Assembly (NCBI GenBank): GCA_022822425.1
Contig: JAJEBS010000247.1
Coordinates: 1 to 64,000 of the forward strand
Direction of reading: 5' to 3'
Source of the DNA: Gemmatimonadota bacterium
Lineage (GTDB): Bacteria; Gemmatimonadota; Gemmatimonadetes; Longimicrobiales; Gaopeijiaceae
Length of the DNA: 64,000 nt
This document shows, in pieces, positions 9,024-14,818 of the stretch. The notes under the pieces are model-generated. The model ran no database searches. It saw only the letters and a list, made by a program, of their open reading frames with translations, and was not told the DNA's origin. Both the position numbers and the translations under genes were made by a program. The stretch's first letter is position 1. Every line of letters starts with the position of its first letter.

Positions 9024-9296
9024 ATGGCACAGGCCGAAGCGGAGGCGCGCAGAGCTGTAAATCGACTGCGGCGGGCGCTGGAGAAGGCGCACCGGGAAAT
9101 CGATGCGCTGGAAGGGGCGCTCGCCAGAGCGGAGGGCGATGACTTCCCCGGGCACGCATACGAGGAAGCCCGGGGGCGGCTCAGCCAGGTGGTGGAATTC
9201 GTGGACGATGAGTCGCGCCGGCTGCAACACAAGATCCTCGTGGCGGGAGGCCTGGAGCCCGGACGAATTCGGCGTGCCTCCGCCCGGAATGGATGA
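9024..9296 (+). CDS. small coiled-coil protein upstream of LuxE/LuxC-like genes
   Basis: A 90-residue, charged, helical protein. The first 40 residues (RRAVNRLRRALEKAHREIDA) show heptad spacing compatible with a coiled coil. The rest, EFVDDESRRLQHKIL, is also helical and there is no signal peptide. I chose ATG 9024 because AGGGAG precedes it by about 8 nt; the longer frame in the track starts in non-coding sequence. Its stop overlaps the ATG of the LuxE-like gene by 4 nt (ATGA), so it is coupled to that gene. I do not recognise the family. A structural or scaffolding role for the two downstream enzymes is only a guess. Confidence 0.7.
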   Translation: MAQAEAEARRAVNRLRRALEKAHREIDALEGALARAEGDDFPGHAYEEARGRLSQVVEFVDDESRRLQHKILVAGGLEPGRIRRASARNG

Positions 9297-10399
9297 ACGG
9301 CACCCGCCTCCGTGACGATCTGATCGGCGTCATGGGAGCGGGGGTCGGCACGCCCCTGTCCGACGCGGATTTCGACGACCTCGCACGCCGGGCGTCCGCA
9401 CACCAGTGCGAGCGCAACCCGGCATTCGCCCGCTTCTGCGAGGCGCGCGGCGTTCAGCCGGGCTCGTGGTCCTCGTGGCGGGACCTGCCGCCGGTGCCCG
9501 CGCGCGCATTCCGGGAGCGCGGCCTCGTCTCCCGGGGGCCGGCGCAGGCCGTTTTCCGCACCAGCGGCACCACAGGCGGCGGGGCGGAGCGCGGAGAACA
9601 TCGCGTCCCGGACCTGTCGCTCTACCACGCCTCGCTGCTCCCCAACTTCGAGGCACATCTGCTTCCCGATGGCGCGCGCCTGCCGATGCTCTCGCTCATC
9701 CCGCCTCCGTGCGAAGTTCCGGATTCCTCGCTCAGCCACATGATCGGCGTCGTGGAAGCCGAACTGGCGCCCGGGACCCGCTATTTCGTGGACAGGGACG
9801 GCAGGCTGGACGAGCACCGGTTGCGATCCGCCCTTGGCGACGCAGAGGGCGCGCGCGATCCGGTACTGGTGGTGGGCACCGCCTTCGCGTTCGTCCACCT
9901 GCTGGATGCCCTGGCGAGGGAGAGCACCCGCTTTCGGTTGCCGGGCGGCTCGCGGGTGATGGAGACCGGGGGGTTCAAGGGACGCAGCCGCACCGTTCCG
10001 AGGGAGGAACTCTACGCGGCCATCGACAGCCGACTCGGCATTCCGTCGGACCGGATCGTGAACGAGTACGGCATGACGGAGCTGCTCTCCCAGTTCTACG
10101 AGCCCGTGCTCACGGGGGGAGCGCGTCTGCACCATCCCCCGCCGTGGGTGCGTACGCGCGTGCTCGACCCGGCGACGCTGGAGCCGCTTCCTCCCGGCCG
10201 CGTGGGGCTGTTGTGCCACTTCGACCTCGCCAACCTGGGCTCCGTCTGCTGCGTTCTCACCGAGGACCTGGGCGTAGAGCCCCCGGAGGCGGAGGGACAC
10301 GGTTTCCGCGTGCTGGGCCGGAACCCCGGCGCGGAGCCGCGCGGCTGCTCGCTGGCGATGGACGACCTGATGACCGCCCTCCGCGGCCCGGCATGGTGA
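9293..10399 (+). CDS. LuxE-like acyl-protein synthetase / adenylate-forming enzyme
   Basis: A 368-residue protein of the acyl-protein synthetase LuxE family (adenylate-forming, cytoplasmic). The P-loop-like AMP-binding motif RTSGTTGG is near residue 84, followed by METGGFKGRSR and then NEYGMTEL, the usual adenylation motif. LuxE activates a fatty acid as acyl-AMP and passes it on for reduction by LuxC. Here it is fused by overlap to a LuxC-type reductase (the next ATG lies 7 nt inside this gene) and to a coiled-coil protein upstream. No LuxA, LuxB or LuxD is present, so light production is not implied. The physiological acid is unknown. Confidence 0.82.
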   Translation: MNGTRLRDDLIGVMGAGVGTPLSDADFDDLARRASAHQCERNPAFARFCEARGVQPGSWSSWRDLPPVPARAFRERGLVSRGPAQAVFRTSGTTGGGAERGEHRVPDLSLYHASLLPNFEAHLLPDGARLPMLSLIPPPCEVPDSSLSHMIGVVEAELAPGTRYFVDRDGRLDEHRLRSALGDAEGARDPVLVVGTAFAFVHLLDALARESTRFRLPGGSRVMETGGFKGRSRTVPREELYAAIDSRLGIPSDRIVNEYGMTELLSQFYEPVLTGGARLHHPPPWVRTRVLDPATLEPLPPGRVGLLCHFDLANLGSVCCVLTEDLGVEPPEAEGHGFRVLGRNPGAEPRGCSLAMDDLMTALRGPAW

Positions 10400-11802
10400 C
10401 GACATTCCCGGCCTGGTGGCTGCCCCCCGGGGTGCCGGACGGCGGGCCCGCGATGCTCTCCACCGCCCCCGTGAGCGACGACCTGCGGCTCCGCTTCCCC
10501 ACCCCCGACCCCGCGTTTGCGCGCCGCCTGTGCGACCAGCTGGTCGAAGCGGGCGCCCGCCTGCACGAGCGCCGCACCGACTCGCTGGTGGCGTCGCTGG
10601 GCCGTGCCGGTTCGCGCTTTCTGGATCCCGCCGACCCGATCCGCAAGGCGGCGCTCGACCTGCTGCCCGCCGCCGCCGGGCTCTCCACCGCCATGGCCCG
10701 GGAGGTCCTCGACGGGATGGCGCGCGACTGGACCGCGGACCGCCTGACGCAACTGGTGCGCGCGCAGTTCCCCGACCCGGCGGTGCTGGACGGCTTCCGG
10801 CCGCGGCCGGGTGGGTCGCGGGTGCGGGCGTTCGGCCACCGCCTGATCGTGCAACTGGGCGCGGGCAACGTGGCCGGCGTGTCGGTCGGAGGGGTGGCGC
10901 GGGCGCTCCTGGCGCGCTCGCCCGTGCTCCTCAAGCCCGGCCTCCACGACGCCGTGCTGCCGGTGCTCTACGCCCGCGCCCTGGCCGACTGCGACCCGGG
11001 GCTGGCGGCAGCCCTGGCCGTGCTCTACTGGCCGGGCGGCGCCGACACGGTGGAGACGGAGGTGCTCTCCCGCGCCGGCCTGGCAGTGGTGTACGGCGGC
11101 GCCGACACGGTGGAGGCGGTGCGCGAGCGCATCCCCGCCACCACCGCCCTCGTGGCGTACTCCCACAGGGTCGGGGTCGCCCTGGTGGGCCGGGAAGCGC
11201 TCGCCGCCGGGCAGGCGAACCGAACCGCCATGGACGCCGCGCGCGCCGTAGCGGCATTCGACCAGAGGGGTTGCGTTTCCCCCCACCTCTTCTGGGTGGA
11301 GGAAGGCGGCGCGCTCACCCCCGCCGAGTGGGCTGCCCGCCTGGCTGCCGCCATGGCCGCGCTCGAGCGGAATCTCCCCGCCGGTCCCCCTCCCCCGGAG
11401 GTCGCATCGAAGGTGCAGCAGTTGCGCGGCACCTGGGAGCTGAAGCAGGCAGCCGGCGAGGGGGTGCGCGTCTTCCGCCCGGCGGGCGCGGAGTGGACGG
11501 TCGCCTACGACCCCGACCCGGCCTTCTCGCCGTCCTGCCTGGGCCGTTTTGCCTGGGTGAAGCCCGTTCCCGACCTGGAGCGGGTCGCCGGGCTCCTCGC
11601 CGGACTGCGCCCGTTTCTGCAGACCGCCGGACTGTGCGGGGCCGGGGCGCGCACCGCCTCGCTGGTCGAACAGCTCGGCGCGGCGGGCGTCACCCGGGTG
11701 GCCTCGCTACGGCGGATGGCGTGGCCGCCCGCCTGGTGGCACCACGACGGCGGCGACCCCTTGCGGGCGCTCGTCCGCTGGGTCGACTGGGAAGTGGAGT
11801 AG
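10393..11802 (+). CDS. LuxC-like acyl-CoA/acyl-protein reductase
   Basis: A 469-residue enzyme of the LuxC acyl-CoA reductase family, related to aldehyde dehydrogenases. The dinucleotide-binding region includes VQLGAGNVAGVSVGG near residue 157, and the presumed thioester-forming nucleophile is Cys294 in DQRGCVSPHLFW. The reaction would be NADPH-dependent reduction of an activated acyl group to an aldehyde. The 798-residue track ORF begins far upstream in the LuxE frame shadow; ATG 10393 gives the normal family length and overlaps the luxE-like stop by 7 nt. With the upstream gene it forms a complete acid-to-aldehyde module. The fate of the aldehyde is not visible in the window. Confidence 0.85.
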   Translation: MVTTFPAWWLPPGVPDGGPAMLSTAPVSDDLRLRFPTPDPAFARRLCDQLVEAGARLHERRTDSLVASLGRAGSRFLDPADPIRKAALDLLPAAAGLSTAMAREVLDGMARDWTADRLTQLVRAQFPDPAVLDGFRPRPGGSRVRAFGHRLIVQLGAGNVAGVSVGGVARALLARSPVLLKPGLHDAVLPVLYARALADCDPGLAAALAVLYWPGGADTVETEVLSRAGLAVVYGGADTVEAVRERIPATTALVAYSHRVGVALVGREALAAGQANRTAMDAARAVAAFDQRGCVSPHLFWVEEGGALTPAEWAARLAAAMAALERNLPAGPPPPEVASKVQQLRGTWELKQAAGEGVRVFRPAGAEWTVAYDPDPAFSPSCLGRFAWVKPVPDLERVAGLLAGLRPFLQTAGLCGAGARTASLVEQLGAAGVTRVASLRRMAWPPAWWHHDGGDPLRALVRWVDWEVE

Positions 11803-14524: not shown

Positions 14525-14818
14525 TCAGGGAAGAATGGACCGGAGCAGCGCTTCCAGTTGATGGCGCCTGAAGCTCTGGGCCTTTTGCACCGCGAGCTCG
14601 TACGATTCCTCGACAAAAATGGCCGCGGTCTGCGCGGCGTCCCCGGATTCGCCATCGGCCGGCGAGTAGACGAGCTTCGCCCGGCACGGTTCCCCGCTCG
14701 CGGAACGCTTGGTCTCGAATTCCAGATAGACGTCCCAGATTCGATTCTGGTACGTGATGGTGGCGAGATGCTGGCCCGGCATGGGCCTCAGGTCGGAGGG
14801 TACCGCAGGGTCGATCAT
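14525..14818 (-). CDS. small conserved-looking protein of unknown function
   Basis: A 97-residue soluble protein without signal peptide or membrane segment. It mixes short beta-strand-like pieces (LATITYQNRIWDVYLEFET) with a C-terminal helix (ESYELAVQKAQSFRRHQLEALLRS). I do not recognise the family. It lies directly before the GWxTD gene in the same orientation and is probably co-transcribed with it. It is preferred over the overlapping frame of the 897-residue ORF because it has an ATG and ordinary protein composition. Confidence 0.6.
   Translation of the reverse strand: MIDPAVPSDLRPMPGQHLATITYQNRIWDVYLEFETKRSASGEPCRAKLVYSPADGESGDAAQTAAIFVEESYELAVQKAQSFRRHQLEALLRSILP

Follow-up and report, generated by a model that had tools for sequence, protein, structure and literature searches.

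A luciferase-free LuxE-LuxC gene pair of Gemmatimonadota and its possible role in queuosine biosynthesis

A LuxE-LuxC gene pair in a 64,000-nucleotide stretch of DNA from a Gemmatimonadota bacterium (hereafter the window) may encode a two-protein carboxylic acid reductase of queuosine biosynthesis, which would convert 7-carboxy-7-deazaguanine (CDG) to an aldehyde and replace QueC and QueF. To this reading, drawn from genomes only, we give a probability of roughly 0.55. CDG is the product of QueE, and the known route from it to preQ1 employs QueC and QueF (CDG to preQ0 to preQ1). In the proposed route QueE would likewise supply CDG, whose carboxylate LuxE would adenylate before taking the acyl group on Cys352; LuxC would receive the acyl group on Cys294 and reduce it with NAD(P)H to 7-formyl-7-deazaguanine; and a putative aminotransferase would convert this aldehyde to preQ1 (7-aminomethyl-7-deazaguanine), so that the nitrile preQ0 is bypassed. 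TGT would then put preQ1 into tRNA, and QueA and QueG would complete queuosine. Start and end are those of QueC and QueF, but the proteins are unrelated and the intermediate would be an aldehyde instead of an amide and a nitrile. Behind this proposal stand the genes themselves with their catalytic residues intact, their occurrence in genomes that also have QueE and QueA, the absence of canonical QueC and QueF, and a QueE-LuxE-LuxC operon in one lineage; from these we infer the substrate, the direction, the acyl transfer and the final amination.

Three overlapping open reading frames (ORFs) occupy positions 9024-11802 of the window, where an earlier note on this DNA had placed them. The features that bear on the argument are as follows.

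9024..9296, forward strand: helical-hairpin protein, 90 aa; a real conserved gene, judged not to be part of the enzyme unit; no Pfam family above cut-off
9293..10399, forward strand: LuxE-type ATP-dependent acid-activating enzyme, 368 aa, ANL/PaaK fold; Pfam PF04443, E=2.7e-21
10064..10066, forward strand: codon of LuxE Glu258, the x of NxYGMTE; pocket role presumed from knowledge of ANL enzymes
10346..10348, forward strand: codon of LuxE Cys352, the predicted acyl acceptor, in a GCSL motif
10393..11802, forward strand: LuxC-type acyl reductase, 469 aa; Pfam PF05893, E=1e-65
11272..11274, forward strand: codon of LuxC Cys294, the predicted thioester nucleophile

The small gene and LuxE overlap by 4 nt (ATGA), and LuxE and LuxC by 7 nt with an ATG at 10393, both as described before; an alternative GTG start at 10396 would reduce the second overlap to 4 nt. 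Because the pair and the small ORF are kept at about 30-90% identity across many genomes, we regard all three as real genes and not chance ORFs. Lon, YgfZ, YpdA, AbrB, TPR, cytochrome and MoFeS genes surround them, and luxA, luxB and luxD were not found in the locus, in keeping with the earlier report of a unit free of luciferase and LuxD. The single PF00296 member of the source genome is no evidence of luciferase, since this broad family also matches E. coli and B. subtilis. Further along the window, on the reverse strand (14525-14818), is a gene for a 97-aa protein, conserved in 48 loci, where it separates the AbrB/LuxC end from the genes of alternative complex III; its relative in locus L080 matches no Pfam family.

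Both enzymes belong to their Pfam families, LuxE scoring 76.4 bits against PF04443 (curated cut-off 24.9) and LuxC 222.5 bits against PF05893 (cut-off 21). Against the NCBIfam long-chain lux equivalogs they score far below the cut-offs, at 53 of 550 bits for LuxE and 49 of 750 for LuxC. The lux LuxC-LuxE complex (PDB 7xc6) is the only solved structure that either matches by sequence (LuxE to 7xc6_E, E=3.6e-15; LuxC to 7xc6_A, E=2.5e-10). The window pair shares with it the two families, the paired genes and a cysteine in each protein; it differs in having neither LuxD nor luciferase at its locus, in a LuxE 21% identical to that of a lux operon, and in the combination of Glu258 with a canonical YGMTE where lux LuxE has FNQVE. 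The ATP motifs RTSGTTGG and NEYGMTEL are present in the window LuxE. In an alignment of 64 LuxE and 72 LuxC proteins from the phylum, Cys294 is found in 72/72 LuxC proteins, and in all others aligned. Cys352 of LuxE, which the earlier note overlooked, is kept in 63/64 (one row has X), in 8/8 LuxE proteins of the TPP-riboswitch type described below and in 6/6 others. The conserved nucleophilic cysteines and ATP motifs give good support to a unit that turns an acid into an aldehyde, as does the gene order, LuxC coming after LuxE in 65 of 67 called loci, and the activation and reduction that had been suggested for the pair probably hold. Searches for viral relatives of LuxE and phage relatives of LuxC found none. 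A predicted structure of LuxE (pLDDT 88.5) has PaaK ligases as its best PDB matches; any member of the family would be expected to resemble these aromatic-acid ligases, and the match does not decide the substrate. EhpF, which we take to be an ANL enzyme of phenazine antibiotic synthesis that activates an aromatic acid for reduction, belongs to another family. Its structures (PDB 3l2k, 3hgv) also match the fold of the model.

The 90-aa protein had been put forward as a coiled-coil partner of the two enzymes. It is predicted to form two helices (residues 2-40 and 43-74), and its model gave no significant fold match. The neighbourhood survey suggested in the earlier note was run on 80 loci, with genes called by a codon-usage scorer and then clustered; it argues against the partnership, because the coiled-coil gene is not conserved beside LuxE-LuxC. 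We denote families of the phylum by number (f1-f11), genomes by G labels and loci by L labels. The small gene is present in 76 of 298 genomes, confined to f1 and f2 apart from one weak match. The next gene downstream in f1 is an amidohydrolase in 19 cases versus LuxE in 14, with 4-nt overlaps in 11 and 6, respectively; in f2 the gene is found at a different locus, with YgfZ as a neighbour and a 4-nt overlap with a GGACT gene. It is present in G035, which has neither LuxE nor LuxC, and the pair in f3, f7, f8 and f9 comes without the small gene. Its place before LuxE in part of one family is a local arrangement and not a conserved partnership. A ternary unit in which the small protein scaffolds LuxE and LuxC would agree with the adjacency and overlap seen in f1 and with the strong conservation of the protein, but the commoner amidohydrolase neighbour, the GGACT overlap and the patchy co-occurrence make it very improbable, and the protein was rejected as a functional partner on its shifting neighbours and that patchiness. 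That one small family is coupled by 4-nt overlaps to LuxE, to an amidohydrolase and to a GGACT gene, each downstream of it, is an observation in its own right.

Across the phylum, LuxC was found in 102/298 and LuxE in 104/298 genomes, in nearly identical sets. Both are near-universal in the order of the window (f1-f3), and some members of f7, f8, f9 and f10 have them too; families f4, f5, f6 and f11 are without them, apart from a few weak LuxE-like matches. In f3 the two genes stand apart and both are kept. The genomes nearest that of the window are metagenome bins, one of them named BD2-11 clade.

The distribution of the pair is mirrored by that of the queuosine genes. We profiled the pathway in 80 genomes, 52 with the pair and 28 without; LuxE-LuxC state and family were the sole criteria of choice. 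Canonical QueC is present in 0/52 genomes that carry the pair and in 20/28 of the others (Fisher p 9e-13, a significance exaggerated by kinship), and QueF in 0/52 versus 17/28 (p 2e-10, likewise exaggerated); this opposition favours CDG as the substrate. Some proteins match the QueF profile at only E~1e-5, much more weakly than genuine QueF does; they are presumably FolE, a relative. QueA is present in 78/80 genomes, so preQ1 is needed with or without the pair. QueE occurs in nearly all LuxE-LuxC genomes and, where QueC and QueF are both lacking, it is kept in 49/50 genomes with the pair versus 1/7 without, a retention that again favours the CDG route. The source genome (89% complete) fits the same pattern, having QueE, QueG, TGT and QueA but neither QueC nor QueF; its relatives, up to 99% complete, are alike. 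In that genome QueE and QueG share one locus and QueA overlaps TGT.

Gene order also supports CDG reduction. An f8 operon has the order QueE-LuxE-LuxC, and an f10 contig carries QueE-LuxE and ends where LuxC is expected. The QueE-LuxE junction is a 4-nt overlap in G178 and G294, and the LuxE-LuxC junction of G178 is another. Where f4 and f5 genomes were inspected, a different type of QueE adjoins QueC. Family f7 provides the cleanest case of exchange: genus g63 has QueC and QueF without LuxE-LuxC, the other sampled genera have the reverse, and this too favours the route. QueD was seen in f8 and f9. Near a QueD-like gene of G097, a genome with the QueE-LuxE-LuxC operon, lies a gene (L204, 8135-8746, reverse strand) for a divergent QueC-like protein with a zinc motif and FPDATP replacing YPDC.

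Counts over related genomes exaggerate the association. On a RuvB-QueA-TGT tree the LuxE-LuxC state changed independently about 3-4 times, and QueC/QueF moved in the opposite direction in 2-3 of about four changes and never in the same one (sign test p=0.25), which weakens the case for CDG. So few switches would suit an unlikely alternative in which LuxE-LuxC acts on a different small acid, QueC and QueF are missing alongside it through common descent, and preQ1 or queuine is taken up. Genomes with QueA that lack LuxE-LuxC, QueC and QueF do exist, and these must therefore salvage. Such uptake, however, leaves unexplained why QueE, lost in 6/7 genomes lacking all three, is retained beside the pair, and why it shares an operon with LuxE-LuxC.

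CDG reduction is further weakened by the scarcity of candidates for the amination step. A kynureninase-like class V PLP enzyme is encoded near QueE in G136, G288 and G187 only, and not in the QueE locus of the source genome; these genes (L194, 5282-6406; L195, 4037-5182; L200, 7-573) may supply the amination enzyme in some genomes. Also against the route, LuxE-LuxC is not beside QueE in the window; f8 keeps a divergent QueC-like gene, which falls below the NCBIfam cut-off and is without the YPDC motif; the QueE-like matches of f3 are all weaker (1e-31 to 1e-34); G235 (83% complete) has LuxE-LuxC but no QueE match; and no preQ1 riboswitch was found at LuxE, QueE or QueC loci.

The nearest relatives outside the phylum, in plasmid records, are LuxE-LuxC pairs of Pantoea, Azospirillum, Pseudomonas, Niallia, Priestia and lactobacilli, with LuxE at 34-43% identity. 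Where annotated, they are accompanied by an SDR and usually by an importer (an NMT1/THI5-like ABC system or a nucleobase permease), and a TPP riboswitch lies upstream of the operon in 9/10 loci inspected (L157, 7719-10471; L158, 7740-10558; L159, 1390-6321; L161; L162; L164; L165; L173; L174). The Niallia locus (L164) has two TPP riboswitches in tandem, and these operons are annotated as long-chain fatty acid ligase plus acyl-CoA reductase. The riboswitches suggest that the cassettes most likely salvage a thiamin-precursor acid as the alcohol. In the LuxE tree and in the LuxC tree alike, the Gemmatimonadota proteins form the sister group of the TPP type, with the SSL and YGMTE motifs common to both. 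The other outside LuxE proteins (lux, Salmonella, Deinococcus, Chloroflexota, Streptomyces and a second Priestia LuxE) have no TPP riboswitch upstream and are split off by a long, well supported branch. On a Salmonella plasmid (L166, 4923-9800), a LuxE-type acyl-protein synthase, an AMP-binding protein and a PaaK-type ligase stand in a row.

This kinship invites the thought that the window pair also salvages a thiamin precursor, by reducing the carboxyl group of a pyrimidine or thiazole to an aldehyde (and alcohol). We consider this improbable and decided against it on the riboswitches, ThiC and the pocket. Positions 1-24000 of the window gave no Rfam match, and none of the other Gemmatimonadota loci scanned has a TPP riboswitch at LuxE. 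Such riboswitches were found in 66/90 genomes of the window's order, mostly near thiC among the positions listed; none was found before LuxE and none in the window's genus. A ThiC profile matched in the source genome and most of its relatives, which therefore make the thiamin pyrimidine themselves, and neither SDR nor importer accompanies the Gemmatimonadota pairs. Position 258 of LuxE, the x of NxYGMTE, we take to be the acid-pocket position of ANL enzymes (Ala322 in GrsA). It is Glu in 64/64 Gemmatimonadota proteins, Met in 8/8 of the TPP type and I, G, F, F, M and T in the others; position 150 is Met in Gemmatimonadota and Tyr in the TPP type, again without exception, and positions 103 and 196 differ as well. 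Given this pocket, the presence of ThiC and the absence of a TPP riboswitch before LuxE, the Gemmatimonadota enzyme probably acts on a different substrate from its sister group. The reduction of CDG is favoured both by the invariant Glu258 and by a sister clade that, judged by its riboswitch, acts on another small heteroaromatic precursor.

The earlier view made the pair a classical fatty acid reductase, whose fatty aldehyde would go into lipids, wax or the modification of a protein. We now think it doubtful: family membership speaks for it, but the long branch separates the pair from lux-operon luxE and from the LuxE that is ACP/AMP-ligase-associated, and an invariant Glu sits in the acid pocket. 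In the 80-locus survey no lipid gene is conserved beside LuxE-LuxC across families, and the profile tracks queuosine genes instead. A lipid role would suit the ceramide-type genes near the pair in f7 and the patatin-like gene of f8; these were set aside as a general clue, other families being without them. In the f7 loci (L106, L107, L108, L110, L111), LuxE-LuxC lies downstream of a block of alpha-oxoamine synthase-like, GNAT and epimerase genes that resembles bacterial ceramide synthesis genes. An amidohydrolase (F11), a glutamate dehydrogenase (F53) and a DUF255 protein (F34) were also dismissed as conserved partners, being lineage-specific. Luciferase-free LuxE-LuxC pairs have already been reported in flagellin glycosylation islands (PMC7874193, PMC4875605), where they occur with acyl carrier protein, FabG and glycosyltransferases; none of these was seen at the window locus. 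Genome profile and pocket together point away from lipid, wax or pigment and towards a small acid of the aminopyrimidine type.

Among the openly licensed papers searched, which are no proof of absence, none links LuxE or LuxC to queuosine, 7-deazaguanine or TPP riboswitches. At about even odds, we hold the fuller view that LuxE and LuxC replace QueC and QueF by reducing CDG and belong to a wider subfamily that acts on small heteroaromatic acids and has a second branch controlled by TPP riboswitches. The proposal, if correct, would mean that a textbook tRNA-modification pathway has two chemically distinct routes between the acid CDG and the amine preQ1, with enzymes so far known from bacterial light put to use for a tRNA base. 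It would explain how part of the Gemmatimonadota make queuosine without QueC and QueF, correct many annotations as 'acyl-CoA reductase' or 'long-chain fatty acid ligase', and add a sister branch linked to thiamin.
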